Assembly (NCBI RefSeq): GCF_024347315.1
Contig: NZ_AP025460.1
Span: forward strand, 1,488,001-1,552,000
Source: Vibrio atlanticus
GTDB taxonomy: Bacteria > Pseudomonadota > Gammaproteobacteria > Enterobacterales > Vibrionaceae
DNA length: 64,000 nt
Reading direction: 5' to 3'
This document shows positions 1,015 through 16,462 of the stretch, piece by piece. Every line of letters begins with the position of its first letter. The stretch's first letter is position 1. Below the pieces are notes generated by a model. The model made no database searches and was not told the origin of the DNA. It worked only from the letters and a program-made list of their open reading frames with translations. Both the position numbers and the translations under genes were made by a program.

Positions 1015-2375
1015 CCACTTCCATTGTTTTTGAATTTGGCTACTTAACGTGCGATGAACAAGCCGCGCAAGCAAATGATGACTACACGCTTATTTCAGCC
1101 AATGCGTTTCAATATTTAGAACGGCTCTGTTTAAATGAAAACAAAGGTAATGTAGGGCGTTTTTTAAAGCTGTGCAGCCGTTACGGCGACAAGTTGCTGC
1201 AAGTAAGAAACTACGTGGGCGTATTGTTTACGCCCAATGGTGAACACATTGAAGTATTACCCAAAGTAGCGAAAAAAACAGATAACTCACCAGAGGCCAT
1301 CGACGAGTCGCGAAAACTCTTGCTGATGATGCTCAAACACCTCGGTGAATTTAGGCATATTGCCACTCAGTCGGCTAACGTTGATACCTTGAGAATGCCG
1401 CTGCTTGAAGTGTTTATTCAGCAGTTTTTGCACAGTGTTAACCAATTGGTGAAGCGCGGTTTACGCAGTGACTACGTAAAACAGCAAGACAACTTAGGCT
1501 TTAAAAAAGGCAAGTTATTGGTGGCCAAACAGGTGCGCTATAATTCAGTGAACAAACACAAATTTTATTGTGAGTTTGATGAGTTTTTGCAAGACAGACC
1601 TGCCAATCGGTTAATACGCGCCGCCTTAAAAAAAGTAGCGGCGTACACCCGAAGAAACCAAAGCCAAAGGTTACTTCGAGAGCTGGATTTTGCGTTTGAT
1701 GACATACCCGCAAGTACCAATGTGAAGCAAGATTTTGCGCGTGTAAAACTAGACAGAGGCATGGACTATTACCAGTCACCGCTTGCATGGGCTAGGTTGA
1801 TCCTTGAAGGTTTTTCACCTCTTAGCATGAAAGGTACGGCGAATGCGCAGTCTTTACTTTTCCCTATGGAGTCGGTGTTTGAAAGTTACGTCGCGTCGAT
1901 ATTACGCAGGAACTTAGCTGATGGCGTTACTCTTAGCACGCAAGTTAAGTCTGAATATTTGGTTCACCACAATGGTGATCGTCAGTTCCAACTTCGCCCT
2001 GATTTAGTGCTTACCAAATCAGATAATTTGAAAGTGATTTTAGACACCAAATGGAAGCTTATCAACCTAACCGCTTCTAATTACGGTATATCGCAGTCTG
2101 ACATGTATCAAATGTTTGCCTACGGCCATAAATACCTAGGGGGAGAAGGGGATCTGTTTTTGATTTATCCTGCTCATGATGGTTTTGATAAGGCGGTTGA
2201 GTGCAGCTTTGACTTTGATAAAGAATCGCCACCTAAGCTTAGGTTATGGGTTGTCCCGTTTACTTTAAAATCTGAAAACGAGAATAGTGTTATTTGGCCA
2301 GAAGCATTTAAGTCTACAGCTAATGAGCTTATTGGTTCGCTAGCACAAAGGCTTAAGCATGAGAGCTATGCTTGA
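1011..2375 (+). CDS. mcrC: McrC nuclease subunit of the McrBC restriction system
   Basis: McrC supplies the endonuclease and stimulates the McrB GTPase. The 454-residue length is usual for the larger McrC proteins. The N-terminal half has the family pattern of a beta-rich region (VRNYVGVLFTPNGEHIEVLPK, read around 1206-1268, is typical of McrC). The C-terminal half has a PD-(D/E)xK nuclease core: RPDLVL at about 1999-2016, then ILDTKWK about 10 residues later, giving the D and DxK catalytic residues. The ATG lies in the ATGA overlap with mcrB. A 141-bp gap then separates it from the split acetyltransferase gene, so the restriction operon sits immediately outside the integrated element. Nothing suggests it is broken. 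Confidence 0.9.
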   Translation: MTTSIVFEFGYLTCDEQAAQANDDYTLISANAFQYLERLCLNENKGNVGRFLKLCSRYGDKLLQVRNYVGVLFTPNGEHIEVLPKVAKKTDNSPEAIDESRKLLLMMLKHLGEFRHIATQSANVDTLRMPLLEVFIQQFLHSVNQLVKRGLRSDYVKQQDNLGFKKGKLLVAKQVRYNSVNKHKFYCEFDEFLQDRPANRLIRAALKKVAAYTRRNQSQRLLRELDFAFDDIPASTNVKQDFARVKLDRGMDYYQSPLAWARLILEGFSPLSMKGTANAQSLLFPMESVFESYVASILRRNLADGVTLSTQVKSEYLVHHNGDRQFQLRPDLVLTKSDNLKVILDTKWKLINLTASNYGISQSDMYQMFAYGHKYLGGEGDLFLIYPAHDGFDKAVECSFDFDKESPPKLRLWVVPFTLKSENENSVIWPEAFKSTANELIGSLAQRLKHESYA

Positions 2376-2516
2376 TCATGTTAAGTTAGCGATTTTATTG
2401 GCAGTGTGAATGGTTTATATTTCCATAATATCTATGTGCTAAAGGAAAATGTTGCGCTGGTACAATGCGTTACATAAATGGGCACTTGGTCGAAAGTATA
2501 TGAATTAAGGACAATT

Positions 2517-2885
2517 ATGCCGGATATCTCCCTCCAACTTGAACTTGCCAGCACTGACGATATCCAACAGTTGCAGAGGTCGGCACTCAGCGCATTTGCA
2601 GACGATGTGGAAAAATACGGTGCGTTCCCGCCAAACATAGAATCAACAGAGTGGTTCCAAGCTGAGGTTAGTAAAGGCAACTTTTATAAAGTGCTGTACA
2701 ACAGCGACTATGCTGGGGCAATTTGCGTAGAGTGTGGTGAGCAGAGCAGTATTGAGATCCGATATTTCTACATTGATGTTCAGTATCAAAATAAACATAT
2801 TGGCTCTCAAGCCATGAGCCTTATTGAACACCAGTATTCGCATATCACAAACTGGACTTTGTTCACCCCTTATCAGTGGAATTGA
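2517..2885 (+). pseudogene. GNAT acetyltransferase, 5' fragment (gene split by the integrated element)
   Basis: This is the first part of a GNAT-fold N-acetyltransferase. The ATG at 2517 is preferred because TTAAGGA lies just upstream; an in-frame ATG at 2478 has no such site. The acetyl-CoA-binding core is visible as IEIRYFYIDVQYQNKHIGSQA. The reading frame runs to FTPYQ at 2862-2876 and then hits WN-stop, too early for the family, which needs a last helix and strands. The missing end lies at 15742-15861 in the same frame; joining them at the shared CAG gives a 158-residue protein. The fragment as it stands should be inactive, as the last GNAT strands are absent. Confidence 0.85.
2866..2877. 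repeat. attL core, left end of the integrated element
   Basis: CCCCTTATCAGT here matches CCCCTTAACAGT at 15734-15745 in 11 of 12 positions. On the left of this site lies acetyltransferase coding sequence, and on the right lies non-coding sequence leading to the integrase. The right copy has the reverse arrangement, which is the pattern expected of attL and attR made from a site inside the gene. Confidence 0.8.
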
Positions 2886-2909
2886 CTAATATTCCTCTGT
2901 AGACAGCAG

Positions 2910-2945
2910 TATACAACAATGAATAGCAATACCTTATACAACAAT
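2910..2945. repeat. Direct repeat TATACAACAAT next to attL
   Basis: TATACAACAAT occurs at 2910-2920 and again at 2935-2945, with a looser third copy (TATACAATTAT) near 2995. The copies lie between the attL core and the integrase start. Their place and spacing suit arm-type integrase or excisionase sites, but they could also be promoter-region operators. Confidence 0.35.
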
Positions 2946-3040
2946 AATTTAGATTAATTATGTTTGTTCATGCTCGTTCGCTTTAGTCTATCGATATACA
3001 ATTATTCTGCTACATATCCGCTACACAAAGGAAGAGTGTT

Positions 3041-4249
3041 ATGGCGATTAAGCAGAAAATCACAGCTAATTCAATTAAGAACCTCAAGGTTGAACAGAAG
3101 CGATTGAATGATACTGAAATCAGTGGCTTTCATGCTCGGATCTCTCCTTTAGGTACGATTAAGTATTATCTGTACTTCCGTCTCAACGGGAAGCAGCGAA
3201 ATTATCTCCTTGGTTCTGCTAATGCTTTAACTCCGGCGCAAGCAAGAGACTTAGCTAAAGAGAAAGTGGGTTTAGTTGCAAGTGGTGAAGATGTGCAAGA
3301 GGCCCGATATGAAGCTAAAAGGCAAGAGCAAAGAAGTAGCCTAACCCTAAAAAAATTTCTCGATGAACATTATGAGTCCTACCTAATAGCTATGAACCCT
3401 AAGACGGCTAAGCAGTCGTTTATGTGTATAACAAACAATTTTAAACATCTGGCGAATAAACCCTTAGCAGAGATCACTGCGTGGGATATTCAACAATGGG
3501 TTACTGAACGCAGGAACTTAGGGCGTGCTCCAGCAACGGTTTCGTACGCCTATAATCGCCTGAGAGCGGTTTTCAACCGTGCCGTTGAATGGAATTTTAT
3601 TGATTCACATAATCTGAATAATGTAAAAATAACTAGGGAAGATAATAAGAGAGTTCGTTACCTTTCCTATCAAGAAGAAAAGTCACTATTGGACACTCTA
3701 CATCATCGTAGTGAGCGTCTGAAAAATGATATCAAAAAGCGCTTTGGAGAAAGGGCGTCGACACAGTTTTCTGTACGTTATATCGATTATCTAGAGCCAC
3801 TGGTTTTAATGGCGATGAATACTGGTATGAGGAAAGGTGAATTACTTTCTTTATGTTGGGAGCACGTCAATATGGAGGATCGTTATCTAACGGTACGTTC
3901 TGAAAATGCGAAGTCCAAAAACAAACGAACGATCCCTCTGAATAATACAGTTTTTGACATGCTTAACGTTTGGCGAGAGCAGAATCCAACTACGGAATTT
4001 GTTTTTGTTGTCAATAATAGGCCTTTGGAAACCTATCAATATCAGTGGGAGCAATTATTAAAAGAAGCAGGTATACAACATTTTCGCTTTCATGATTTGC
4101 GCCACCATTTTGCCAGTAAACTTGTTATGGCGGCAGTGGATTTAAACATCGTTCGTGAGCTACTTGGCCATGCTGATTTAAAGATGACCCTTAGGTATGC
4201 GCATTTAGCGCCTGAGCACCAAGCCAATGCGGTCAATTTGATTGGTTAG
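3041..4249 (+). CDS. int: Tyrosine recombinase (P4-type integrase) of the element
   Basis: This enzyme would cut and join attP and attB to integrate the element. At 402 residues it has the usual length. An N-terminal arm-binding domain of the DUF4102 type (residues about 8-90) is followed by a core-binding domain (about 100-190) and the catalytic domain. The catalytic set is complete: R264 in TGMRKGE, a lysine near 293, H351 and R354 in HDLRHH, H377 in LLGH and nucleophile Y386 in TLRYAHL. The start is supported by AAAGGAAG about 8 bp upstream. It is the gene next to attL and reads away from it into the element. It appears intact, so excision may still be possible. Confidence 0.95.
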   Translation: MAIKQKITANSIKNLKVEQKRLNDTEISGFHARISPLGTIKYYLYFRLNGKQRNYLLGSANALTPAQARDLAKEKVGLVASGEDVQEARYEAKRQEQRSSLTLKKFLDEHYESYLIAMNPKTAKQSFMCITNNFKHLANKPLAEITAWDIQQWVTERRNLGRAPATVSYAYNRLRAVFNRAVEWNFIDSHNLNNVKITREDNKRVRYLSYQEEKSLLDTLHHRSERLKNDIKKRFGERASTQFSVRYIDYLEPLVLMAMNTGMRKGELLSLCWEHVNMEDRYLTVRSENAKSKNKRTIPLNNTVFDMLNVWREQNPTTEFVFVVNNRPLETYQYQWEQLLKEAGIQHFRFHDLRHHFASKLVMAAVDLNIVRELLGHADLKMTLRYAHLAPEHQANAVNLIG

Positions 4250-4300
4250 CAGCTGTATCCCGTCTTATTCCCATCTGGATCTTTTACCATGTTGTTATTT

Positions 4301-4510
4301 TCGGTTAGGTAACCCGATGAAACCAATAAACACGGGGCTTTGATGATTTGTTACCGCATGATTTGGTAATGGTTACTTTCGGTTAAGCTTTTATTAACCC
4401 ATTGATTTTATTTATATCGTACCTAACCGAGAAATGACTCCCTTTGAGAGCGCGTTTTTTCATCGTTTAACCTAATAGGTATAACTCTAAACCTAATAGG
4501 TACAACCCTC
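4301..4510. promoter_or_regulatory. Repeat cluster between integrase and the replication operon
   Basis: The 320-bp gap after the integrase has no gene. It holds TACCTAACCGA (4420-4430) and its exact inverse TCGGTTAGGTA (4301-4311). It also has two direct copies, 21 bp apart, of a 20-bp unit that starts ACCTAATAGGT (4470-4489 and 4491-4510). ACCTAATAGGT is itself a palindrome around a central A. This is the pattern of operators or iterons. AlpA, encoded 60 bp downstream, or the Rep protein are the natural candidates to bind here. Confidence 0.5.
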
Positions 4511-4569
4511 TAACACTGCGAATTTATTTCTGCTTAGATGAACTCGAATCGACTAAGAGGAATAAAGAG

Positions 4570-4812
4570 ATGAATTCAGAATTAACCCAAAAACGTGCTT
4601 ACACCGAACAAGAGACTGCGACTTACATTGGTATGAGTCGTTCGTTTTTACGCCAATCAAGAATGGAAGGACATCGAAAGAATCGAACAGACGCCCCACC
4701 TTTTATTAAGATAGGGCGAGCGGTACGCTATCTAAAAGAAGATTTAGACCAGTGGCTAGAGAGTCACAGTAAATGCGAACAACTCTCTCACAGAGGGGGA
4801 TATCATGATTAA
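4570..4812 (+). CDS. AlpA-like helix-turn-helix regulator
   Basis: This is an 80-residue DNA-binding protein of the AlpA/excisionase type (MerR-like winged fold). Its hallmarks are YTEQETATYIGMSRSFLRQ as the recognition helix region, then PPFIKIGRAVRYLKEDLDQWL, the usual wing. AlpA proteins of P4-like elements control integrase expression or help excision. It is the first gene of a run with overlapping ends: its stop overlaps the next start. AAGAGG lies about 10 bp before the ATG. The repeats at 4470-4510 just upstream are a plausible binding site. The family call is secure; whether it acts as activator, repressor or excisionase is not. Confidence 0.85.
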   Translation: MNSELTQKRAYTEQETATYIGMSRSFLRQSRMEGHRKNRTDAPPFIKIGRAVRYLKEDLDQWLESHSKCEQLSHRGGYHD

Positions 4813-5056
4813 TTTGAGCAAAGAACAATTGACCCTTTTGGCTTGGATGAAAAGAGGACATACATTTGAAGTGTGCTCAGATTATTGCCCGAGAAATGGC
4901 GAGGTGATCCCAAAACACCGACTGCCTATTCGCCTCTTTAAAGAGAGTATAGAGAAGCTTTTCCAAGCCGGTTTGATAACTTATGTGAGCAACAAATCTT
5001 ATGGACTTCGTTGGGATGTTTTCTCCTTGACTCAGAAAGGGAGTGAGCGAGTATGA
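4805..5056 (+). CDS. Small winged-helix-like protein of the replication operon
   Basis: This 83-residue protein is not one I can name. The sequence looks like a compact winged-helix: LSKEQLTLLAWMKRGHTFE, then IEKLFQAGLITYVSNKSYGLRWDVFSLTQKG, the helix-plus-beta-wing end seen in many small phage regulators. It overlaps the AlpA-like gene by 8 bp at its start and the Rep gene by 4 bp at its end, so the three are translated together. A role in controlling replication of the element, or as an accessory to Rep, is inferred from position only. Confidence 0.7.
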   Translation: MINLSKEQLTLLAWMKRGHTFEVCSDYCPRNGEVIPKHRLPIRLFKESIEKLFQAGLITYVSNKSYGLRWDVFSLTQKGSERV

Positions 5057-6597
5057 ATGTGTTAGATTTATCGTGCGTTGACCCTGATGACAGAGTTTTT
5101 GTCACTAAAAGGTTAGCATTGTTTCCATTTGAAATTCAGCGGATCTTACTCAATGAGTATTGTCGTCAGCCAACCAAGTTTGAACGAAATACTTATTTGC
5201 GAGTAACGTCGGACACACTCTCGAATCATTTATCTGTCCCGTTGGAGAAAGTGGGACTCAACCTTTCTGAAGAGGAGTTAAGGGTCAAAGCGAAACGCTT
5301 AGCGGCCTCGACGCTTGCATTACGACGCCAACATTTGAATGAATCCGTTTCCCTTGTTTATATTCGTCAGCTAGTCAAGCAACAAGGACTTCCCGTTAAA
5401 GCAGATTTGTATTCACACTCCGGTGAGCTCGCCCGTTACAGTGACCCCAAATGGTGGCTTAGAAAGCTCAGAAAGGCGTTAAGACGTAATATAGAAACTG
5501 TTTTGCACCATCTTAACCAAATCAATAAGAAAACAAGCCTGTATTGCTCCTATCCGACATTAATCGCAAGAAGGAACCAAAGAGCCTATCAGAACGCTTA
5601 TTTAGAAAATACCGTTGCTGTTAATGAGCTAGGGCAACGCTTTTCGTTGCTTGAATTAGCACAAAAGGGTGTCTCTGATCCGAAGATACGTAAAGCTGAA
5701 TTAATGGTTAGAGCAAGGGGATTTGAAGACCTTGCTCAAGAACTTAACCATGTAGCAACTTTTCTAACTCTTACTTGCCCTTCGAAGTATCACCGAAGCT
5801 ATTCAGCTTCGGGTCATGCCAATCCAAAATGGGGAGGCTTTACCCCGCTAGACGGTCACTCTTACTTAAATAAGGTCTGGCAATTAATACGTTCAAAACT
5901 GAATCGTTTAGGGATCCGTTTTTACGGTTTCCGTGTAGCAGAGCCACAACATGACGGCACGCCACATTGGCATTTATTATTGTTTGTGGAGCCGGAATCT
6001 TATCGTCAAATGATAGAGGTAATGCAGGACTATGCGTTACGAGAAGATAGTAAAGAAAAAGGCGCGACTGAGCACCGATTTACTGAAATCAAGATAGATC
6101 CATCAAAGGGCTCCGCTACGGGTTATATCGCTAAGTACATTTCAAAGAACATTGATGGAACTGATCTTGATAAAGGTGTTTACGAAGAAGACCCTCAAGA
6201 CGCGGCCGCCAGAGTTGATGCGTGGGCGGCCTGTTGGGGCATACGTCAATTTCAACAACTGGGAGGCTGTTCTGTGACAGTGTGGCGTGAGTTGAGACGC
6301 CTAAAAGAAAGACAAGGTTTACCGTTACTTGCTCAAGGGATTTTAAAAGCGGCGGACAAAGGTGATTGGAAGCGGTTTACTGAGATGATGGGTGGTGTGT
6401 TCAGTCTGCGTAAGAATCAGGTCTGTAAGCCTTACTACGCTCTTTCTTTTGATTTAACTACTGGAGTAATCAAAAGTAGTTTATATGACGAAAATGAAAT
6501 GGTGAGAGTGTTGAAAGGAGTCATGATTGCGGGGCGTGAAATCATCACGCGAACATTTCAGTGGCGATTGGAATCAACTCCCCGTTATGCTTTTTAA
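5053..6597 (+). CDS. HUH-endonuclease replication initiator (phage GPA / gene A family)
   Basis: This 514-residue protein should nick the element's origin and start rolling-circle type replication, as P2 gpA does. The HUH motif is PHWHLLLF with H305 and H307. The catalytic tyrosine pair is Y358 and Y362 in GYIAKYISKN, spaced as in the two-tyrosine Rep proteins. FLTLTCPSKYH (about 237-247) is the conserved strand before these motifs. The long N-terminal region (1-200) is typical of GPA. Its start overlaps the upstream gene as ATGA. An own replication initiator in an element with no structural genes fits a satellite or an integrative plasmid. No key residue is missing. Confidence 0.9.
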   Translation: MNVLDLSCVDPDDRVFVTKRLALFPFEIQRILLNEYCRQPTKFERNTYLRVTSDTLSNHLSVPLEKVGLNLSEEELRVKAKRLAASTLALRRQHLNESVSLVYIRQLVKQQGLPVKADLYSHSGELARYSDPKWWLRKLRKALRRNIETVLHHLNQINKKTSLYCSYPTLIARRNQRAYQNAYLENTVAVNELGQRFSLLELAQKGVSDPKIRKAELMVRARGFEDLAQELNHVATFLTLTCPSKYHRSYSASGHANPKWGGFTPLDGHSYLNKVWQLIRSKLNRLGIRFYGFRVAEPQHDGTPHWHLLLFVEPESYRQMIEVMQDYALREDSKEKGATEHRFTEIKIDPSKGSATGYIAKYISKNIDGTDLDKGVYEEDPQDAAARVDAWAACWGIRQFQQLGGCSVTVWRELRRLKERQGLPLLAQGILKAADKGDWKRFTEMMGGVFSLRKNQVCKPYYALSFDLTTGVIKSSLYDENEMVRVLKGVMIAGREIITRTFQWRLESTPRYAF

Positions 6598-6739
6598 CTT
6601 GGAGTTCTGTGAATAAGTGTACGCGAGGACTAACGCTTTTCTCTAAATATAAATTATTAATTATTAATTTTAGGCCATTCGATAAAGACTGATACGTTCG
6701 ACACTCTTTGTTTAACATCAGAGGGTAGGCAACAAATTA

Positions 6740-7741
6740 ATGGAAACGAGTAAAGGATTGACGAGAGAGCAAATAAGGTGTTTTCGCCGAGATGGTTATT
6801 TAGGACCATTACCGAGGTTCGCAAATGTCGAATTAATTCAAGATGTTTTAACGGAAGTTAGGGAGATAGCTCAAAGCCCAGAGCCGCATCCCCTGTATGG
6901 TCGTTATTCTGTCCGGGATTGGCATTTAGTATCGACGAAAATTAAAGAGTTGCTCACAGATTCAGCTTTGATCCCAAAGCTACAGACTCTGATTGGAGAC
7001 GATTTAGCTCTTTGGCGCTCAAAAATTTTTCACAAGAAATCTGGAGAAAACGGTACAGGTTGGCACCAAGAGTGGGGAGAATTTGATGGTGAAGAAATTG
7101 GCAATAATAAGCCTAGTTTAAGGCCTAAACATGAAAGGCGGGATCGTTGGTGGAATTTAACTGTTTGGGTAGCCCTTACTGATGTTGAGCTTGATTGCGC
7201 TCCGTTGCGTTTCATTCGTGGTTCACATAAAAAACAATATCCTAAAACCATGGTTCCAATGACGGAATCTGAGTTTTGGCATGATCCATTTATTGACTGT
7301 AAAACAATCGAAGATGTTGTCGAAAGGGCGAATAATCACACACTAGTATTGGACGTTGATACCAGTGGGCTTTTTGAAAATTATCAAATTAGTGGGAAAT
7401 CATTCGAGGATGTTAAAACCTATGTTAGAGCTGAACTTGCAAAATTACCTGCAAAAAAAACATTGGGTGTAGACGAGAGCGAAGAAGATATAGTGACGAT
7501 CCCTATGAAAAAAGGGGAATTTGTTATTTTCACGGAAAGAACCATGCATGGTTCTCTTCCTAATACATCTTCTAATGACCGGTTTGGCATTAATTTTAGA
7601 GTAACGGCAACGGATACGGAAATTTATCCATTTCGATATTTAGGCGACTTTATTGATGGCTCAAACATAGATATCACAAGACATTCGAGCTTACTGCTCT
7701 GTGGTAAGGATCTGTCTAACGCACGTAACAGTTATACGTGA
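6740..7741 (+). CDS. PhyH-family Fe(II)/2-oxoglutarate oxygenase
   Basis: This 333-residue protein belongs to the phytanoyl-CoA dioxygenase family, non-haem iron enzymes that hydroxylate small molecules or carrier-bound amino acids. The iron ligands are H109 and E111 in GWHQEW and H270 in TMHGSLPN; R281 or R287 would bind 2-oxoglutarate. The second ligand is Glu where most members have Asp. An acidic residue there argues against a halogenase, which has Ala or Gly. The end is 16 bp from the SHMT-like gene, and a LysE exporter follows, so the three form an operon. The substrate is unknown; a free or bound amino acid is inferred from the partners. Confidence 0.8.
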   Translation: METSKGLTREQIRCFRRDGYLGPLPRFANVELIQDVLTEVREIAQSPEPHPLYGRYSVRDWHLVSTKIKELLTDSALIPKLQTLIGDDLALWRSKIFHKKSGENGTGWHQEWGEFDGEEIGNNKPSLRPKHERRDRWWNLTVWVALTDVELDCAPLRFIRGSHKKQYPKTMVPMTESEFWHDPFIDCKTIEDVVERANNHTLVLDVDTSGLFENYQISGKSFEDVKTYVRAELAKLPAKKTLGVDESEEDIVTIPMKKGEFVIFTERTMHGSLPNTSSNDRFGINFRVTATDTEIYPFRYLGDFIDGSNIDITRHSSLLLCGKDLSNARNSYT

Positions 7742-7757
7742 GAAGGGAGGTTAGAAA

Positions 7758-7938
7758 GTGATTATCAGCAAACAAATGCATGACATGAATATTCTGAATG
7801 ATGCTTCTGCCTTACTTGGGTGTTCGACTTCTAAAGAGCTCTATCAAAAATTAAGAGCCTTAATAGAGCGACACGAGACTGTGAGAGTGAAGACAGGAAT
7901 AAACCTTGTGGCAGCAGAAGGCCCTATGAGTTTACAAG
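7758..7938 (+). pseudogene. SHMT-like PLP enzyme, 5' fragment (gene cut by the IS)
   Basis: The GTG at 7758 follows a strong GGGAGG by 7 bp and codes for the first 60 residues of a fold-type I PLP enzyme. NLVAAEGPMSLQ corresponds to the NLIASEN region of serine hydroxymethyltransferase. At 7938 the reading frame enters the insertion sequence and runs on as a chance tail to a stop at 8033. Removing the IS and one 9-bp duplicate joins it in frame to 9002-10146, giving a 441-residue protein. As it stands this piece lacks every PLP contact and should have no activity. Confidence 0.85.
7930..7938. repeat. Target site duplication, left copy (GTTTACAAG)
   Basis: GTTTACAAG directly precedes the IS and is repeated at 8993-9001 directly after it. 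The 9-bp length is that of IS903-group elements. An exact duplicate means the insertion is recent enough not to have drifted. Confidence 0.9.
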
Positions 7939-8992
7939 GGCTTTGTTGCGTAATTAAATTTAAAGATAGAACTACCCCGTTTCGCGTATTTCTTAATCAA
8001 TACGACAAGTTTCAGGCATACCTAACCCAGTAAGCTTGTTCAACGCTTTTATCATCGCGTAAGTTTCACCCACCTGGGCATTGTAATTTCTTAAGCTCAG
8101 TTTCCCTCCTAGCAACTGTTTAACTCGATACATCGCTGTTTCTGAGAGTGAACGTTTGTGGTATCCATACCGCTCTTTCCAATACTTATTTGAGCCGTAT
8201 AATTTCTGGCAACCCACGGCGAGATTTCGAGAGTGACCACGCTCCCAGAAGGCTGCCCCTTCTCTTGGGGGAATAAGCGCAATAGCTCCCTTAATCTTAA
8301 TAGCAGCGTGACACGCTCTCGTGTCGTAAGCGCCATCACCAGACACCTCAAGGATACTTCGGCGTGTTTGTTTCAGTAAGTTCGGGAGTACTTCTCCATC
8401 TGTAACCGTCGATAAACTTAGCTCAGCGGCAATGATCTCATGAGTGTTGGTATCGACGGCAATATGAAGCTTTCGCCAGACTCTACGCTTGCCATCCGTC
8501 CCATGTTTTTTGACTTTCCATTCACCTTCGCCATAAACCTTAAGGCCAGTAGCATCAATAGCTAGGTGCTGTATCGCTCCTCTCGTTTTAGTCTTAAATG
8601 AAACCTCAACTTGCTTGGCTCTACGACTGATGCAGGTGTAATGCGGACAACTTAACGGTACATGGGCTAACCTAAATATCGAGTCGATAAATCCTTGCAG
8701 CGCTCTCAATGGCATAGAAAAAACTCGTTTCACCATGAGTGCTGTCGTGATAGCTAAATCACTGAACCGACGCGGCCTCCCGCGCTTATTCTGTTTGCTT
8801 TGCGCCCAGCCGCTTATCGCCTCTTCATCAATCCAAAAGGTCAGAGAGCCACGGTTAATGAGTGATTGATTGTATTGCTTCCAGTTGGTTGTTTTATAAC
8901 GAGGTTTAGGCATAGGGCTACGAGAGGGAGTGAATGTAGCTGATCAGATCGTAGGTTCTGGATTTAGTTCCACTGAATTACGCAACAAAGCC
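7939..8992 (-). mobile_element. IS5-family (IS903-group) insertion sequence, 1054 bp
   Basis: The element has 17-bp perfect terminal inverted repeats, GGCTTTGTTGCGTAATT at 7939-7955 and its inverse at 8976-8992. It has one transposase gene on the minus strand and a 9-bp duplicated target (GTTTACAAG) on both sides. Length, ends and duplication size all match the IS903 group of IS5. It lies inside the SHMT-like gene, which is therefore a pseudogene in this strain. The transposase is full length, so the element may still be mobile. Confidence 0.93.
7993..8913 (-). CDS. IS5-family transposase (IS903 group)
   Basis: This 306-residue DDE transposase moves the IS that encloses it. The N-terminal DNA-binding part (RYKTTNWKQYNQSLINRGSL, residues about 5-24) is the standard opening of this group. 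The catalytic aspartates are in LAIDATGLKVYGEGEW and VSGDGAYDT, and the glutamate in the Y-(2)-R-(3)-E-like block RSLSETAMYRVK. Its length is that of IS903 transposases (about 307). The gene runs against the host operon. It shows no frameshift or internal stop. Confidence 0.95.
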   Translation of the reverse strand: MPKPRYKTTNWKQYNQSLINRGSLTFWIDEEAISGWAQSKQNKRGRPRRFSDLAITTALMVKRVFSMPLRALQGFIDSIFRLAHVPLSCPHYTCISRRAKQVEVSFKTKTRGAIQHLAIDATGLKVYGEGEWKVKKHGTDGKRRVWRKLHIAVDTNTHEIIAAELSLSTVTDGEVLPNLLKQTRRSILEVSGDGAYDTRACHAAIKIKGAIALIPPREGAAFWERGHSRNLAVGCQKLYGSNKYWKERYGYHKRSLSETAMYRVKQLLGGKLSLRNYNAQVGETYAMIKALNKLTGLGMPETCRID

Positions 8993-9001
8993 GTTTACAA
9001 G
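8993..9001. repeat. Target site duplication, right copy (GTTTACAAG)
   Basis: Exact second copy of the 9-bp sequence that flanks the IS on its left. Confidence 0.9.
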
Positions 9002-10146
9002 CTCGGGGACTACTAAGTTGTGACTTGGGGTCTAGAGCCTCAGGCGGTTCTATTGGACGAAATAACCGCTTTTTTACGGGGCTTGATCAAGCTGATGAAA
9101 TAGAGGCACTTTGCATAGTATTACTTAAGGAATTATTTGAATGCAATCATGCAGACCCTAGGCTTTTAGGAGGGCTTCATGCTAATACGGTTGTCTATGC
9201 AGTTCTCAAAAACCATTTCAACGTATCAGATATGTCCACCCTCAATACATTTTATGGTGGTAACTCAAGTAACCATAGTTTAGGCCCCCCGGGGATCTTG
9301 AACTATTCCATTTCAGATCTTCCTGTGGATCCGAATACCCTCGAAATTGACTTAAACGCCTTTGAATACATGGCTAAGTTTAGACAACCGAAATTAGTGA
9401 GTTTAGGATCAGGTCTCAACCTTTTTCCCTTTCCTGTAAAAGAGATAAAAGACATTATTTCTCGTTGGGGAGGGATGTTACTTTTTGATGGCTCACACCA
9501 AGCAGGGTTAATTGCTGGTGGAGTTTATCCAAACCCTCTGTCTTTGGGAGCTGATATCTACACTGCATCGACAGGAAAGACGTTTAGTGGCCCTCAGGGA
9601 GGAGTAATTTGTTGGAATTCGGAAAAGTTTTCTTCTCCAATTAGCACGACTATATTCCCAAAGCTAACTGGTTCACATCAACTTAATCGAATTGCTGCCC
9701 TGACGGTCTCATGCTTAGAATTAAAGGAATATGGCCTTGAATATATGGCTCAAGGGATACTTAATGCAAGGCAACTTGCTAGTAATTTACAGGCGCACGG
9801 GTTGGAGGTGCTCTGTTCTGATGAAGGCTTTACTGAAACTCATCAAGTTGTTGTGAAATGGACTCGAGAAGAAGGTGCGCGTTTAGCATGCTACCGTTTA
9901 GCTGATGTTGGGGTTTTTGCTAATGCAGTCCCACTTCCTGAAGATAGAGAGTTGTTATCTGGGATACGTTTTGGTGCAACAGAAATTACTCGATTAGGGA
10001 TTACACAAAGTCAAATAGTTGTTTTAGCTGAGGTAATCGCAGGCGTTCTACAAGGTAATTACAATTTGAAGGAGGCGCGTAATGTAGTAAGTGAGTTAGC
10101 CTCAACATTTTCTGGCTTTAAATATAGCTTGGAGGGTGGACGATGA
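9002..10146 (+). pseudogene. SHMT-like PLP enzyme, 3' fragment (catalytic part)
   Basis: This holds most of a fold-type I PLP enzyme related to serine hydroxymethyltransferase and L-threonine transaldolases. It has LFDGSHQAGLIAGG (PLP-ring Asp, D223 in the restored numbering) and ASTGKTFSGPQGG with the Schiff-base lysine K253. KTFSGPQ is nearer to the KTFPGPQ of transaldolases than to the KTLRGPR of SHMT, as I recall these families. The first in-frame start left is a TTG at 9025, so the N-terminal 68 residues are lost. Its stop overlaps the LysE start as ATGA. Without the IS, the enzyme would make or break a beta-hydroxy amino acid, an inference from family only. Confidence 0.8.
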
Positions 10147-10781
10147 TTTCAATTACAGAACTGTTTACCTACTTATTTGTTACATTGCTATATGCGTTTA
10201 TGCCCGGTCCTGCAATGCTTTACAGTATTGCTCAAGCTGTGTCAGGAGGGAAGAAAGTAGGAATTATGGCGGCTTTTGGCCTTCATATAGGAGGTTATTT
10301 TCATGTAATTTTAGCTGTATTAGGTTTGTCTTCTGTGCTTTTAGCTAATCCTTCTCTCTATTCTGCCATTCAAAAGCTAGGAGCTCTCTATCTTGTTTGG
10401 TTGGGTTTCCAACGTATCTATCTATCAAAAAAATTACGTATTACTTCTTGCGAAAGCAGTCTTACCTCTCCTAAAAGAACGTTTATTGATAGTGTCATTG
10501 TAGATATTCTGAACCCTAAAGCAGCAATTTTCTATCTTGCTTTTCTCCCACAGTTTGTGAATGAAGCAGGAAGTGTTGCTGTTTGGCTCCAACTGCTTAT
10601 TTTGGGAGTTGTTACGAATTTATTGTTTAGTAGTGCTGATCTGTTAAGTGTTTTGATGGCGAGTCATCTACAGAAAAAGTTTCAAGCAAGAAGTAATTGG
10701 GTTGATTTTTTCTCAAGGTGGTCTGGTAGTATTTTTATACTGTTAGGTGTTATGGTCTTGGTAAACTCCTCGTACAATTAG
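10143..10781 (+). CDS. LysE/RhtB-family amino acid exporter
   Basis: This is a 212-residue inner-membrane efflux protein with about six membrane segments. The family signature PGPAMLYSIAQAVSGGKKVG (about 20-39) and the later DILNPKAAIFYLAFLPQFV are clear. LysE-type carriers export amino acids, homoserine lactones and analogues, driven by the proton gradient. The start overlaps the stop of the SHMT-like gene by 4 bp, so it was built to be made along with that enzyme. This suggests the product or a toxic intermediate is pumped out. With the upstream gene cut by an IS, translation may now be uncoupled or driven by read-out from the IS. Confidence 0.9.
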   Translation: MISITELFTYLFVTLLYAFMPGPAMLYSIAQAVSGGKKVGIMAAFGLHIGGYFHVILAVLGLSSVLLANPSLYSAIQKLGALYLVWLGFQRIYLSKKLRITSCESSLTSPKRTFIDSVIVDILNPKAAIFYLAFLPQFVNEAGSVAVWLQLLILGVVTNLLFSSADLLSVLMASHLQKKFQARSNWVDFFSRWSGSIFILLGVMVLVNSSYN

Positions 10782-10918
10782 GGGAGGGACATACTTCTCG
10801 GATTTTTAATTCAAGTTGAGCTTTATGTTTACGATGCAATGACTTAGGTTAGACGGTAGTGTTACTCGTTACTTAATTCGGAGTTAGCTGCCACTCATGT
10901 TGTGAGGAGGAGTAATAA

Positions 10919-11335
10919 ATGGAATATCCACTTATAGGAGCATGTCAGTGCGGGCAAGTGACCTATGACTTGTATGAAAAACCACTAATGGTCTTTGCTT
11001 GTCACTGTACAGAGTGCCAAAAACTGTCTACCAGCCCATTTAGCATTACAGCAGTTGTCGATGCCGAGAAAATAGAGTTTTCTGGTCAACTGAAAACTTG
11101 GGAACGTTTAGCTGATAGTGGCAATCGTAATTGCGCGATGTTCTGTCCAAATTGTGGAAACAGAATTTACCATTTCAATCCAGATGCACCGCAAACGGTT
11201 AAATTAAAGCTAAAACCAACTGATATGTCGGCAGCTGATATTTTCGAACCTCAAGCACATGTTTGGGTTAGTGAAAAACTAGATTGGTACCAAATACCAA
11301 CTAATGTAAAGGTTTTCCCTGAGCAGCCGGGCTAG
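10919..11335 (+). CDS. GFA-family zinc protein
   Basis: This 138-residue protein belongs to the GFA/CENP-V family, first known from glutathione-dependent formaldehyde-activating enzyme. The zinc sites are visible: CQCGQVTYD near residues 9-17, FACHCTECQKLS near 27-38, and FCPNCGNRIYHFN near 75-87. A strong AGGAGG lies before the ATG. It is 137 bp after the LysE gene and probably has its own or a shared promoter. SHMT-type chemistry can release formaldehyde-level carbon, so a link to the upstream operon is possible but not shown. Most GFA members have no proven substrate. Confidence 0.85.
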   Translation: MEYPLIGACQCGQVTYDLYEKPLMVFACHCTECQKLSTSPFSITAVVDAEKIEFSGQLKTWERLADSGNRNCAMFCPNCGNRIYHFNPDAPQTVKLKLKPTDMSAADIFEPQAHVWVSEKLDWYQIPTNVKVFPEQPG

Positions 11336-11451
11336 CGGTGAGCAAGTGTTTAAGATATTAAAATACTTATTCTAATCTATTGAGGTTTAGGGAGTTTCAT
11401 TGAATTAACTTACTTTTGGCCAGAACTTTCATAGGTTGAATCTTTATCTGT

Positions 11452-11480
11452 GGCACTTTCTAACTCGAAAGTGCCCTTTT
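11452..11480 (+). terminator. Rho-independent terminator after the GFA gene
   Basis: GGCACTTTC (11452-11460) and GAAAGTGCC (11467-11475) form a 9-bp stem with a 6-nt loop, followed by CTTTTG. It closes the cargo operon about 120 bp after the GFA stop. Confidence 0.8.
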
Positions 11481-11550
11481 GTTTCTTAGGTTTGTTTTTT
11501 GTACGACATTCAGTTTAATGTTTGACTTACTTTTCCTTATGGCGAAGCTT

Positions 11551-11686
11551 TAGTTATGTAACTCAATTTGCTCATCTACTACATTTTAGAAGCTAGCTAT
11601 GAATTGCGGCTGATAAAGTCAAAAGCTCACAAGAACTAAAATAGTAGATAGCTGTAGTTTAATGCTCAATTCATAGATAAGTTACT
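11551..11686 (+). other. Structured non-coding stretch in front of the YobI-like ATPase gene
   Basis: Two long dyads interlock here. ATCTACTA with TTTTAG (11574-11589) pairs with CTAAAA plus TAGTAGAT (11636-11649), giving 14 bp around a 2-nt bulge. CTATGAATTG (11597-11606), inside the loop of the first, pairs perfectly with CAATTCATAG (11667-11676) outside it. As RNA this is a pseudoknot or two competing folds; as DNA it may be overlapping operators. No reading frame of note crosses it. It ends about 100 bp before the likely start of the ATPase gene. Confidence 0.45.
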
Positions 11687-11782
11687 GTTGTATAGCATAA
11701 AATCTATGTGATTTTGTGTTGGCTATATGCTATAGATATCATTTGGGATACGATATCAATCATTCATAAAGTGCTGCATCAT

Positions 11783-14700
11783 ATGACAAAACTGATCACT
11801 TCTCTAATACGTCGACTTTCTGATGGACTTAATCGCGTCATCTTGTTGCTCGAAAGAAGACAAAATAGCCCAACTCAACGCTCGAAATTTGTAGATCTTG
11901 CTCCAACAGATGAGGCAGATGAAAAAGGGATATACGCAGAAGCGATAGAGTTCGCAATGAATAGTCCGAAAGTCTTCAATATCGCCATAACAGGCCCCTA
12001 CGGCTCGGGAAAAAGTAGCATAATCCAATCATTTCTTAAAAGATATAAGCGAGATGCACTACAGATATCACTAGCGACTTTTATTTCTGAAACTGATGAA
12101 AAAGGAGTTAGTGCAAACCGTCAGGAGATCGAGAGAAGTATTCTACAACAAATGCTCTATGGTGCTGATGCAAATAAACTTCCATTATCTAGATTTAAGA
12201 GGATACAATCTCCTGATGTAACTTCAATTATTAAATCTCTATTCATCACGCTTGGTATCCTATCGGTTACGTATGTCTTTAATTTTCAAGAAAACATAGT
12301 CAATGGTGATTACTTTACTCCATTTTCTCTTGAAAATTGGTTTAACTTAGGCGTTTTTTCTTTTTCAATCGTATTTGCATGGGTAGTATTACACCATTTT
12401 TATGTCGCGAGTTTTGGTTTATCACTCAAAGGTATTTCACTAAAAGATGTCGAAATAAAACCAGCAAATGATGACGAAACCTCAATATTGAACAGGCACC
12501 TTGATGAGATAATATATTTCTTTCAAAGAACCAATTACGATCTGGTTATTATCGAGGACCTTGACCGATTTAACAATGCTGATATTTTTGTAACCTTACG
12601 TGAAATAAATAGCTTAGTAAATGCCAACTCGGGAGTTAAAAGGCACATTAGGTTTCTCTATGCACTACGAGACGATATGTTCGTCAGCACTGAGCGGACT
12701 AAGTTTTTTGAGTTTATTATACCTGTTATCCCAATCATTAATACATCTAACTCTATAGACATGGTTCTAGCTCAAGGGCAGCGATTATCACTTGATGTAG
12801 GTCTCGATAGACAGTTTCTTCGTGAAGTATCTCGGTATCTAAATGACCTACGATTGATTCAAAATATCTTCAATGAATACAAAATTTATGTAGCTAATTT
12901 AGAAACTGACGGTGAAAACCTTCTCGATACTAATAAGCTCTTAGCAGTTTTGATATACAAAAATGTCTACCCAAAAGACTTTGAGCAACTCCACCGTGGC
13001 TTGGGCACTTTAGCCAAAATACTAGACCTCCGAGACAAGCTAGTTGAAGATGGAGAAAGAAAACATAGAAATGAAATTATGCGACTTGAAAAGACGCTTG
13101 AAGCAGGAGAGCGTCAAGTTCCCGGAGATCTAAAAGAACTACGTAATATATATGCTATGGCTTTATTAGAAAAGCTACCATCCAATACATTATCTATAAA
13201 TGTCAATCAAAACTATGCACAGTTCGTTGAAGTTTTTAATTTATCTTCGAGTGAGAACTTTGATGAGTTTATTGAATCAAAGGTTATTTACTACAAATCT
13301 TCGAATAATAACTACGTACCGTCAATAAATGTGAGTAACCTACAGAATGAAGTAAACTCTATAAAGAGCTATCAACAACGTAGAGAAGAAATAGAGGCTA
13401 AGGCAGAAGAGAACAAAACCAAAATTCTAAGTAAAATTCGCGACTTGCGACCAAAGATTGCTTCAATTCGTACAGCTAAACTCAACGAGTTACTACGTGT
13501 CGACTTTGATCACGAACAAGACTTGTTCGAAGGCTTCGGCGACAACGGGGAACTAGCACGGTTTTTAATACTAGAGGGCTACTTGGATGATACGTACTAT
13601 CAATACACATCACTTTTTCATTCAGGGCGAATGTCTCCAAATGACAATAAGTTTCTTATTCAAATACGTGCATTTATAACGCCTGAACCAGATTTCCTTA
13701 TAGACAATCCACATGAAGTCATAGCTGCGATGAGAAGCGAAGATTTTCAACAAAGCTATGTCTTAAATGTTGTGCTCGTAGATAGCTTTTTGAGCAATCT
13801 GATTCGCTACCAAAGTCAAGTTCAGAAGCTGTTAGATCATGTTATGTCAGATTTTGAACGTTGTGAAGAGTTCCTAGATACCTATTACTCTAGTGGGATT
13901 TACGTTAAGCAACTTCTTACTGAGTTAGCGACTAAGTGGGGTCGCTTGATACCAGCTATGCTCTCAAGTCCCAATAGCAAAGAGCATGTAATGAAACTGA
14001 TATCGAATATACCGACAACAACGCTTAGGTCGCATTCTAGGGATTTCGAAGAATTACCTGTATTTGTGTCAAACAACCTATCTGAAATTTTGTTGAATTT
14101 ACCTGAACTAGAGCCGGAACGTCTCACATGCTTAAACTTTGAAGTCAAAGAGCTTTCGACGATCCATCAGCACTCCGACATAGTTAATGCATTATTCGAG
14201 GAAGGTCTTTTCGCGCTTACGATGGAAAACATAGAGTTCATTTTTGAAGTAATTCTTATCTTTGATGATCGTGAATCTCTATATAAAAACAACTACACAG
14301 CAATACGAGCAACAGAAAACAAAGTCCTGAATCAAAAGATTGAGGAGAACTTTGCTTACTATTTACAAGACATCCTTTTGCCTCTCAAAACTAACACGGA
14401 AGAAGATTCTTCGGCCATTCAAAGTGTTCTTACTCATGATGACCTTGAGCTAAGTGTGCTTAGGGCCTTCATCGAACAGCAGGCAACCAAATTACAGACT
14501 CTAGACCACATCCCAGAAAGGATGTACTGTCCTCTATTCGAATCGAACAAAATACAACCAAGCTGGAAAAATTGCCTTTCTTTCATGGAAAGTCCGGTTT
14601 TTTCAGAAGATGCCCTAACGACATTTCTAGATAGAGATGATGTTCGTACTGTCATTCTGAAGCAACCCATCCCACGTGATGAAGAATCGCAAAGCCTGCG

Positions 14701-15403
14701 CTCATTCATTCTTAAGGCGAACTCGCTTACAAATGCAAGTTATAGCGATTATATTCAGGTTTTACCTAGTATCTATAAAACATTTCCAAGTAGCCTCGAG
14801 CCTGGAAAGATTAGGATATTGATAGATCAGAAGAAAGTTAAGTTCTCAGAAGATAATTTTGATTCAATTTATGAGCACAGAGAGCTACAAATCCATTTTA
14901 TAGCATCTTACATCGATGAATATCTAGCAGAAAATGATGAGTTTTTGCTGAATGATGATTACTTAGAAAGTCTACTCGAAACGGAAATTCCCATTACATC
15001 AAAGTTGAAAGTCATAGAGCAGATGGATTTATCCTCTCTTTTTGACAACCGCTCACGATCTGCTCTAATAGCTAATATAATCGCTGAAAGTGATTCAAAT
15101 CCAAAAAATGTCAATGAAGATTCGGCACGTGATTTAATAATCAACGCCTCGCCTATTGAAACCCAGATATTGATGTTAAACAAATACCATACTCTGGTTT
15201 CAGATGATGACGTTCGTTACATATTGACAAAACTTCCAGATCCATATTGTGAAATAAAAACTGGGTATAGCTCGCCGCGACTGATAGACAACCAACAGAA
15301 TCAAGAGTTAGTTAGATGGCTTGAATCTAGGAGAATTATTTCAACTTGGAAAAAGGATACAATATTTGATAATAAAATTAAGGTGAATCTCTTCAGGCGT
15401 TAA
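11783..15403 (+). CDS. YobI-like P-loop ATPase, very large, membrane-anchored
   Basis: This roughly 1206-residue protein (1231 if the GTG at 11708 is used) has a YobI-type P-loop domain, related in layout to KAP NTPases. Walker A is GPYGSGKSS, with its Lys at residue 102 from the GTG, and Walker B is LVIIEDLDRF near 279-288. Between them lie two membrane segments (about 172-193 and 213-235), the KAP-like arrangement. The last 900 residues are helical with no domain I know. I prefer the ATG at 11783; neither start has a clear ribosome site. Such ATPases are found in phage-defence contexts, so a defence role is plausible as an inference. It is the last gene before attR, where such elements often carry cargo. 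Confidence 0.75.
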   Translation: MTKLITSLIRRLSDGLNRVILLLERRQNSPTQRSKFVDLAPTDEADEKGIYAEAIEFAMNSPKVFNIAITGPYGSGKSSIIQSFLKRYKRDALQISLATFISETDEKGVSANRQEIERSILQQMLYGADANKLPLSRFKRIQSPDVTSIIKSLFITLGILSVTYVFNFQENIVNGDYFTPFSLENWFNLGVFSFSIVFAWVVLHHFYVASFGLSLKGISLKDVEIKPANDDETSILNRHLDEIIYFFQRTNYDLVIIEDLDRFNNADIFVTLREINSLVNANSGVKRHIRFLYALRDDMFVSTERTKFFEFIIPVIPIINTSNSIDMVLAQGQRLSLDVGLDRQFLREVSRYLNDLRLIQNIFNEYKIYVANLETDGENLLDTNKLLAVLIYKNVYPKDFEQLHRGLGTLAKILDLRDKLVEDGERKHRNEIMRLEKTLEAGERQVPGDLKELRNIYAMALLEKLPSNTLSINVNQNYAQFVEVFNLSSSENFDEFIESKVIYYKSSNNNYVPSINVSNLQNEVNSIKSYQQRREEIEAKAEENKTKILSKIRDLRPKIASIRTAKLNELLRVDFDHEQDLFEGFGDNGELARFLILEGYLDDTYYQYTSLFHSGRMSPNDNKFLIQIRAFITPEPDFLIDNPHEVIAAMRSEDFQQSYVLNVVLVDSFLSNLIRYQSQVQKLLDHVMSDFERCEEFLDTYYSSGIYVKQLLTELATKWGRLIPAMLSSPNSKEHVMKLISNIPTTTLRSHSRDFEELPVFVSNNLSEILLNLPELEPERLTCLNFEVKELSTIHQHSDIVNALFEEGLFALTMENIEFIFEVILIFDDRESLYKNNYTAIRATENKVLNQKIEENFAYYLQDILLPLKTNTEEDSSAIQSVLTHDDLELSVLRAFIEQQATKLQTLDHIPERMYCPLFESNKIQPSWKNCLSFMESPVFSEDALTTFLDRDDVRTVILKQPIPRDEESQSLRSFILKANSLTNASYSDYIQVLPSIYKTFPSSLEPGKIRILIDQKKVKFSEDNFDSIYEHRELQIHFIASYIDEYLAENDEFLLNDDYLESLLETEIPITSKLKVIEQMDLSSLFDNRSRSALIANIIAESDSNPKNVNEDSARDLIINASPIETQILMLNKYHTLVSDDDVRYILTKLPDPYCEIKTGYSSPRLIDNQQNQELVRWLESRRIISTWKKDTIFDNKIKVNLFRR

Positions 15404-15733
15404 ATTGATTTTTGAAGCGCATTGGTACGTGCTCTAGGCAATTGTTTGGAGACAGAGTTATAGGCGAGATGTAACAATACTCATGGTTACCTATTATCAT
15501 TTTTGATCTTTTCCATTCACGCTGGACACTAAATCAATGAGTTTCCATACCTGTGCTTACCCATTAATTTCTAATTTAGCAAAGTCACTAATACAGAAAT
15601 GTGGCAGAAACAGTTTGTGGGAAGTTCAAGTCTGTAGAGCCATAAAGCTACATATTTGCTATATAAAATATATTTTTAGATTTGATTTTTTATTAAGCAA
15701 CTGAAATAAAAGTGATATTTAACTTTTTAATTC
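15404..15733. other. Right end of the element, no gene seen
   Basis: About 330 bp of AT-rich sequence lies between the ATPase stop and attR. I find no open frame of weight and no clear hairpin. It may hold right-end integrase or excisionase sites, but nothing there matches the TATACAACAAT repeats of the left end. Confidence 0.5.
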
Positions 15734-15745
15734 CCCCTTAACAGT
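15734..15745. repeat. attR core, right end of the integrated element
   Basis: CCCCTTAACAGT matches the left core at 2866-2877 with one difference. The acetyltransferase frame resumes inside it at CAG 15742-15744. Confidence 0.8.
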
Positions 15746-15861
15746 CATACAGAAACCACCATTTCTACGAAAAGTTAGGCTATATCAAAGTCGGTGAAGT
15801 TCAGCCAGACCAATCAGATGATTTCAAGTTGTTTGAATATTCAAAGAGCCATTTAAGTTGA
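15742..15861 (+). pseudogene. GNAT acetyltransferase, 3' fragment
   Basis: The frame reads Q-SYRNHHFYEKLGYIKVGE and continues to LS-stop at 15861. NHHFYEKLGY is the hallmark of the C-terminal GNAT helix and strand. There is no start codon or ribosome site for it here. It continues the frame broken at 2876, with the shared CAG supplying the same Gln on both sides. It completes the gene found at 2517-2885. Confidence 0.85.
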
Positions 15862-15956
15862 AATAGCGGCATAACAAACGTACACGGCATCTATAACTGA
15901 TGATTGCTGCTCAATTAGATGTTTTGGTATAGGGAAAATTCAGCTAAGGGAATTAG

Positions 15957-16433
15957 ATGAGTGAAAAAGTGAAAGTAGCTCTGAAGTGGCTCAAAGAGCT
16001 CTTGGATGCCGAGGGTGTTGAGTACCAAATTGTCGGAGGGCTAGCTGCAACGATACATGGTGGTAGTCGTGAAATCGCAGACATAGACCTTTATATCCAC
16101 AACTTTGACGCAAACAAGGTTTTGGCTCGCGTATCGCAATTCATATCTAAGCCGTTAATTCACTATGCAGAATACGGTTGGGATCTCGAGTATTTCCAGT
16201 TAGTTTACCAAGACCAAAAAATTGAAATTGGTTTATCTCATAATACGAAGATACAGTCGGCTCTAGATGGGGCTTGGCATCAACTCGAAATCGATTTTTC
16301 AGAGTCAGTCATTAAAAGCTATCTCGGTATCGAATTGCCAGTAATCCCAGTTCATCATTTAGTAGAGTACAAGCGAATATTAGGTAGGGAAGTCGATCTA
16401 ATTGACATACAAGAACTGACGTTAGCCATTTAA
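15957..16433 (+). CDS. Nucleotidyltransferase-fold protein
   Basis: This 158-residue protein has the start of a polymerase-beta-type nucleotidyltransferase: YQIVGGLAATIHGGSREIADIDLYI (about 22-46) holds the GG motif and the DxD metal pair, D40 and D42. VEYKRILGREVDLIDIQEL near the end is common in minimal nucleotidyltransferases related to AbiEii and to resistance enzymes. The start is set by AAGGGAATTAG before the ATG. The next gene follows after about 30 bp and may be co-transcribed. The substrate is unknown; no antitoxin-like partner is seen, so a toxin role is not supported. Confidence 0.6.
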   Translation: MSEKVKVALKWLKELLDAEGVEYQIVGGLAATIHGGSREIADIDLYIHNFDANKVLARVSQFISKPLIHYAEYGWDLEYFQLVYQDQKIEIGLSHNTKIQSALDGAWHQLEIDFSESVIKSYLGIELPVIPVHHLVEYKRILGREVDLIDIQELTLAI

Positions 16434-16462
16434 TCCGAGGTTGTGTGCATAAGGAAATGAGT

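Follow-up and report, generated by a model that had tools for sequence, protein, structure and literature searches.

What leads a mobile island into the middle of an ordinary protein-coding gene? The question is raised by a locus of Vibrio atlanticus that we analyzed in a window of 64,000 nucleotides (i.e., the whole stretch from position 1,488,001 to 1,552,000 of contig NZ_AP025460.1, assembly GCF_024347315.1), in which a 12.9-kb element has split a gene encoding a GNAT acetyltransferase, as an earlier note on this DNA had recognized from the letters alone. This split is a sound but ordinary observation, and the more interesting part is the lineage behind the element, i.e., that its integrase belongs to a clade otherwise found in integron attC sites and that its attR core is of the attC type. 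We consider it likely that the element is a satellite-like or otherwise mobilizable island with integrase, alpA, and replication genes and a Tmn-like gene, which would descend from an attC-targeting lineage and have entered the gene at a look-alike of attC. Directly observed are the split, the empty site, the two ends of the element, and the kin of its integrase with the sites that they occupy.

The 5' piece of the GNAT gene (2517..2876, plus strand) comprises 120 codons and then continues with WN-stop within the element. The 3' piece (15742..15861, plus strand) adds 39 codons up to the stop when the CAG that both pieces share is counted, and the two lie in one frame as the earlier note had stated. 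Pfam matches of the 5' piece to Acetyltransf_1/7 are weak and fall under the cut-offs. That note had also proposed to look for an uninterrupted gene of 158 residues in related genomes, and a search of 148 Vibrio genomes recovered exactly such an intact frame in two of them (G076 and G120) with 97-98% identity over the 5' piece. When searched apart, the two pieces match one and the same gene in these genomes instead of different proteins, with left matches ending at base 1860 and right matches starting at base 1858 of the respective loci (L002 and L003). In a third genome (G036), a gene that is 65% identical over the 5' piece likewise has both pieces matching side by side. At E≤1e-3 the 5' piece is matched in 14 of the 148 genomes including its own, and close matches (65-98%) elsewhere are confined to these three, which gives the gene a patchy distribution (3 of 147 other genomes). 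The remaining full matches show 25-37% identity, G076 additionally has one further short fragment, and no second copy was found in a search of the window's own genome.

The genes flanking the split gene are common to the window, G076, and G120, with a different order in G076. Directly 5' of the GNAT gene, the window encodes McrB/McrC-type restriction genes (31-2375), and the DNA match ahead of the intact gene in G076 begins only within mcrC at window base 1808. The latter genome also has 57 bp with 98% identity to the GNAT gene inside an unrelated frame about 15 kb away from the intact gene (L046:10013-10069).

The element is bordered by 12-bp cores with a single mismatch, CCCCTTATCAGT at attL (2866..2877, plus strand), which is of the host type and the same as in the uninterrupted genes, and CCCCTTAACAGT at attR (15734..15745, plus strand), where the overlap is of the attC and not the GNAT type. 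Among all 12-mers on the plus strand of positions 2001-17000, only these two lie within one mismatch of the attL core, and the resulting element unit is 12,868 bp long. At attR, the core sequence CCCCTTAACAG is a common attC sequence, whereas the GNAT gene has CCCCTTATCAG, so that the overlap reads TTAACAG at attR (attC-type) and TTATCAG at attL and in the empty sites. Further inside, a repeat is found once at either end, as GCTACATATCCGCTACA on the left (3009..3025, plus strand), 141 bp after the CCTTA of the core at 2868 (and not counted from another CCTTA at 2819), and as GCTACATATTTGCTATA on the right (15647..15663, plus strand), 89 bp before the right CCTTA at 15736. Its pattern, GCTACATATnnGCTAyA, occurs nowhere else in the element. 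Relatives of the element have a corresponding repeat, GCTACATATnnGCTACA, at 141 bp past the left CCTTA (10 of 10 cases) and at 89-91 bp ahead of the right one (9 of 10); the pattern used gave no match at the right end of L052 and none elsewhere within the relatives' elements. The pairing of the repeats at the relatives' spacing thus confirms both ends of the window element, and the repeats are probably the arm sites of the integrase. The note's proposal that integration site and element length can be read from the sequence therefore holds, since paired repeats and empty sites agree with the 12,868-bp unit. Right ends were also mapped in ten attC-borne relatives (a set that leaves aside the elements of G130 and G207), where the element abuts a bare attC 3' end and has an identical 9-base core on either side. 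Those of the elements in G081, G185, G196, and G177 were sought and not found with confidence.

Searching 227 Vibrio genomes for relatives of the integrase at E≤1e-100 gave 31 integrase loci in 27 genomes, the window's own included, and we read their left ends from the DNA ahead of each integrase. Sixteen of them sit in attC sites at one shared position near the attC 3' end (L017-L024, L159-L164, L169, and G140, whose integrase is broken), 12 in tRNA anticodon loops (four in tRNA-Arg(CCT) and eight in tRNAs with anticodon CAT), and two in protein genes, i.e., the window element and a decayed relative in G059. The last one, G130:C46, is unreadable because the first part of its integrase is absent. 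These assignments were compared with an attC covariance model built from 13 attCs at ordinary array positions, which came from five of the same genomes and include no insertion site. In 17 of 17 attC loci (the 16 of the genus and one plasmid copy), the model calls an attC that ends 156-160 bases ahead of the start of the integrase gene, with E-values from 3e-13 to 1e-24. It found no match at this place in any of 12 loci at tRNA genes, nor in the window element or the relic of G059. In L165, which is of the tRNA type, an attC is present on the opposite side of the integrase. For a set of 12 tRNA-type loci (five of the genus, two duplicates of such loci, and five from other genera), ARAGORN called an intact tRNA in 11, each time with the anticodon that was expected (CCT, CAT, or CCG), and none in the stretch of the twelfth, L083. 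The intact tRNAs would fit with a far end of the element that rebuilds the target; targets in attC sites and in the GNAT gene stay split.

The use of attC by such integrases extends beyond these chromosomes. Of two plasmid records with a relative, we inspected one, the Vibrio parahaemolyticus plasmid CHN25 P2, which encodes an integrase of 67% identity at an attC on the plasmid. In a wider contig collection, where we considered the best 80 of at least 530 relatives and read 33 left ends by eye, four Colwelliaceae loci with 51-52% identical integrases also lie 3' of an attC, which is backed by the model in L094, L099, and L108 (E from 1e-6 to 5e-4) and was assigned by eye only in L096. A scan of viral contigs found no close integrase relatives, and phage records gave one relative at E≤1e-40 with 35% identity.

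The position of the window integrase among its relatives was studied in unrooted trees of 53 and then 50 integrases, both made without the broken or partial L031, L032, and G130:C46, the plasmid copy, and duplicate records of G genomes, and the smaller one also without L115, L106, and L110 that have internal stops or very long branches. In these trees, the window integrase groups with three attC-borne ones (a set of four with support of 100/100) within a clade of 16 that is itself supported at 100/100 and whose nearest outsiders are integrases from tRNA-Arg(CCT) sites. A tree that groups the 15 attC members to the exclusion of the window integrase is disfavored by the approximately unbiased (AU) test (p 0.015). 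Nested as it is in the attC clade, the insertion in the GNAT gene most likely derives from an attC user. A single clade of all attC users from Vibrio and Colwelliaceae was rejected (AU test, p 3e-46); attC use thus probably arose twice, with one gain and later losses as the alternative in a tree without a root. As a separate observation, an alignment of 15 integrases (A1) shows at columns ~225-247 that nine sequences of the attC clade, the window's included, have one loop that is 5-18 residues shorter than in most of six from tRNA sites.

What these different targets have in common is their layout of a left arm such as CCCC followed by seven bases. In attC sites, the latter are mostly TTAACAG, TTAATGC, or TTAACGC (TTAAGCG in L161); in tRNA-Arg(CCT), they are TTAGGAG (TTAAGAG in L170), in tRNAs with anticodon CAT TTATGAG, and in the GNAT gene TTATCAG. 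At the tRNA sites, the seven bases form the anticodon loop, with the arms as its stem (ccccTTAGGAGgggg). The attC 3' end, accccTTAACAGggcg, closely resembles such a tRNA anticodon arm, and this resemblance would explain how an integrase of tRNA genes could take up attC as a target. Given that the attR core is of the attC type and that attL and the empty sites are one base off, we read the GNAT insertion as the product of a circle with an attC core that recombined at a near match. The integrase ancestor would have belonged to a lineage with the attC 3' end as attachment site, and a circular form presumably carrying an attC-type core (CCCC-TTAACAG) would have recombined with the look-alike in the GNAT gene (CCCC-TTATCAG). 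Integration would then have split the gene without rebuilding it, and the look-alike would account for the choice of site. The uninterrupted relatives, the cores at both ends, and an integrase and AlpA-type protein near attL all support the earlier note's view of a site-specific integration in which the element's end does not restore the gene. With the help of AlpA, the island may still be able to excise, and it may move between cells in the particles of a helper phage or by means of another helper, which we infer because Pfam scans of its proteins gave no relaxase, capsid, or packaging family. The decayed clade member in G059 strengthens the look-alike idea, since it sits at an attC-like sequence, CACTACTTAACAA, within another protein gene, which appears to encode a lipoprotein. 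The first piece of its broken integrase is 88% identical to the integrase of the attC member L161 over 253 residues, and a 74% identical homologue of the interrupted gene in G176 continues through the insertion place. The right end of this relic was sought and not found, with L176:19555 as an unconfirmed candidate.

Several observations weigh against insertion at an attC look-alike by an attC-targeting lineage. In the stretches examined, the host has an integron integrase match over the cut-off and ten attC calls; usual targets are present, and their shortage, now ruled out, does not explain the choice of the GNAT gene. The sequence CACCCCTTAACAG occurs with one mismatch at four places of the genome, one of them in the GNAT gene, and within two mismatches at 74 places compared to 52 for a reversed control, which is not clearly above chance and shows that a core matching attC is, taken alone, no rarity in this genome. 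Furthermore, the GNAT site does not have the right arm of an attC (GGCGTTA), the AU p value of 0.015 is only moderate, and the groups were named once the first tree was in view. Finally, the GNAT gene is occupied only once among the 31 loci in 227 genomes, which leaves room for a newly gained, dedicated specificity. The integrase might indeed have switched to the GNAT gene as a dedicated attachment site in the way that many do with conserved protein genes, such that its attC ancestry would be history only. This would fit with the location of the core in the codons for FTPYQ, unchanged in two close relatives, and with an integrase that is at most 76% identical to that of any attC relative found. 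However, the cores mismatch at one base with the attC-type base at attR, the site was used this one time only, and another member of the clade has hit an unrelated gene in G059, so that we regard a dedicated site as unlikely.

We find it far less probable still that the GNAT gene belongs to an integron as one of its cassettes and resembles attC for this reason. GNAT genes are common in integron cassettes, the distribution of this one is patchy, and in G076 a strong attC call lies about 6 kb from the intact gene (L047:1252-1371). But the calls in L047 and L049 are kilobases away from the gene, with that in L049 being weak (E 0.019), the sole attC hit outside the element in positions 2400-17200 has an E-value of 0.99 (i.e., noise), and the core lies inside the coding sequence. 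With no attC call above noise beside the gene, we rejected this explanation. We give next to no weight to an entry by homologous recombination, a transposon, or an assembly error instead of the island's own integrase, for which nothing speaks beyond one insertion sequence (IS) that is internal and has its own flanking repeats; the core repeat at both ends, the exact agreement with the empty site, and the arm repeats at the relatives' spacing all argue for the integrase.

The left part of the island encodes its core functions, all on the plus strand. These are a tyrosine integrase of 402 amino acids (3041..4249; Arm-DNA-bind_3 and Phage_integrase, PF00589), an AlpA/excisionase-type helix-turn-helix protein (4570..4812; HTH_17, PF12728, and phrog_66 "excisionase and transcriptional regulator"), and a replication protein of the phage GPA family (5053..6597; PF05840, E=4e-86, and phrog_91 "nicking at origin of replication"), which we take to be of the HUH nicking type. 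Between the latter two, a small protein without Pfam or PHROG match (4805..5056) has homologues in seven of 20 related loci, all with a GPA-type replication gene. The cargo, on the same strand, begins with a PhyH-type 2-oxoglutarate-Fe(II) dioxygenase (6740..7741; PF05721, with a chlorinating-enzyme family match under the cut-off), followed by a gene for a serine hydroxymethyltransferase (SHMT)-like pyridoxal phosphate enzyme (7758..10146) and a LysE-type exporter (10143..10781; PF01810). The SHMT-like gene is apparently split by an IS5-family insertion sequence of 1,054 bp (7939..8992, minus strand; transposase NF033579 over the cut-off) with flanking 9-bp repeats GTTTACAAG at 7930-7938 and 8993-9001; the C-terminal part is at 9025-10146, the Pfam match does not include the first 54 profile positions, and 7758-7938 appears to be the N-terminal part of the same gene. 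Together, oxygenase, SHMT-like gene, and exporter resemble a decayed cluster for amino-acid modification and export, in which matches to fluorothreonine-transaldolase and chlorinating-enzyme families both stay under the cut-off. Next comes a GFA-family gene (10919..11335; PF04828), and the largest frame of 1,231 codons with an uncertain start codon (11708..15403) encodes a YobI-like/KAP P-loop NTPase of the Tmn anti-phage defense type (PF20693, E=2e-118; PADLOC Tmn, E=1.1e-76 over residues 56-1075) and is a probable anti-phage gene. The same Pfam scans gave no terminase family and, with a search that did not extend to small open reading frames (ORFs) or an origin of transfer, no relaxase or type IV secretion match as would be a feature of integrative conjugative or mobilizable elements. 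Far from the island, the window also has a glycine riboswitch (Rfam RF00504; 34669-34803, minus strand).

With its attC-clade integrase, an alpA gene, and arm repeats at +141 and about -90, the element shares these features with the attC-borne islands that have integrase and alpA, though it does not sit in an attC itself, with none at attL and an attC-type core at attR only. All 20 related loci that were compared, 15 at attC and five at tRNA genes, have an alpA match. We also scanned the contents of the ten attC-borne islands with mapped right ends, considering ORFs of at least 120 codons minus the integrase and the first 25 families per tally. Their 56 ORFs include seven VapE-like and three GPA replication proteins, and the cargo comprises Septu PtuA-like ATPases, a KAP NTPase, Mrr nuclease domains, and a reverse-transcriptase match; families for capsids or packaging are absent from the 25 listed per library.

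Some of these islands also bear traces of traffic with integrons. The window element has a decayed attC where the LysE gene ends, shortly ahead of the GFA gene that starts 32 bp past this scar (10773..10886, plus strand; attC model R1, 32.5 bits, E=2.4e-6 over 2400-17200, and 2e-5 in a second model run). Its bottom strand folds no better than shuffled sequences (161 of 200 as good or better, in a comparison made with no intact-attC control). Five attC calls are found inside the island of G007, where they lie between the gene for replication and the right arm repeat (L053:6964-9547), which means that cassettes can end up within islands of this kind. On a broader level, we see about even chances that defense-carrying satellites have shifted from tRNA anticodon arms to attC sites, perhaps twice, owing to the likeness of the attC 3' end to an anticodon arm (CCCC-7 nt-GG). 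In this view, the superintegron would be a multi-copy landing strip on which islands dock, freeze a split cassette site, take up cassettes and carry them off, and from which they sometimes stray into look-alikes such as the GNAT gene.

The known systems most similar to this island share some of its features. The PLE1-type islands of Vibrio cholerae, which are satellites of phage ICP1, integrate into VCRs (integron attC repeats) as small anti-phage islands, and a second PLE integrase type uses a site in a protein gene (PMC5481146, PMC8844924, PMC6002521). However, PLE1 employs a large serine recombinase, whereas the window island has a tyrosine integrase (Phage_integrase/Arm-DNA-bind_3) with tRNA-targeting relatives, and PLE1 sits in a VCR/attC, which the window element does not, though 16 of the 31 integrase loci in the genus do. 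Phage-inducible chromosomal minimalist islands (PICMIs) of Vibrionaceae are described with integrase, alpA, and a replication gene, without capsid-remodeling genes, and in some cases with defense genes (PMC10803314). PICMIs, like phage satellites in general, are induced and packaged by a helper phage, and their integrase and AlpA are defined by PF00589 and by PF12728 or PF05930. The window island is alike in having an integrase, AlpA (PF00589, PF12728), and a replication gene, but it lies in a GNAT gene and encodes a PF05840 GPA protein, while the PICMI prototype is located downstream of fis and has a DUF3987/DUF5906 primase. Among 25 of 38 Pfam families listed for the 56 ORFs of the ten attC relatives, there is no DUF3987. 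The fis site is mandatory in the strict PICMI model and optional in a wider one that lists 135 elements, and the main text of that paper is without the words superintegron, integron, VapE, and tRNA (PMC10803314). Some relatives described here may be among these 135 elements; the attC-borne islands have a plan close to that of PICMIs and differ from them in replication gene and site. The prophage Va_90-11-286_p16 of Vibrio anguillarum has excision points flanked by two attC sites that share a 68-bp repeat, for which its authors suggest a role of the integron integrase (PMC9892861). Unlike the window island, it is a prophage. Other mobile elements that target attC are IS1111-attC insertion sequences and group IIC-attC introns (PMC11187229, PMC7923331); the former rely on a DEDD transposase and guide RNA and the latter on retrotransposition, and neither has a tyrosine integrase. 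The literature matches listed by our search, whose scope did not extend to preprints, most subscription papers, or supplements, include no tyrosine-integrase family with attC as attachment site. Possibly another attC-linked mobile unit is present in locus L078 (G000:C2:1214001-1234000), where three 2.35-kb units with 98-99% identity, each with a XerC/D-like integrase match, start where attC calls end (8775, 11566, and 14480). Related integrase copies are present elsewhere in this genome.

The cassette arrays of integrons are usually viewed as being filled and shuffled by their own integrase. If our reading is true, a separate family of tyrosine integrases docks at attC sites, which would give phage-defense islands a large number of places to land in Vibrio and connect the traffic of satellites with that of integrons. 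It would also provide a worked example of how an integrase can change its target, with seven bases that are a tRNA anticodon loop in relatives and the spacer at the attC 3' end here.

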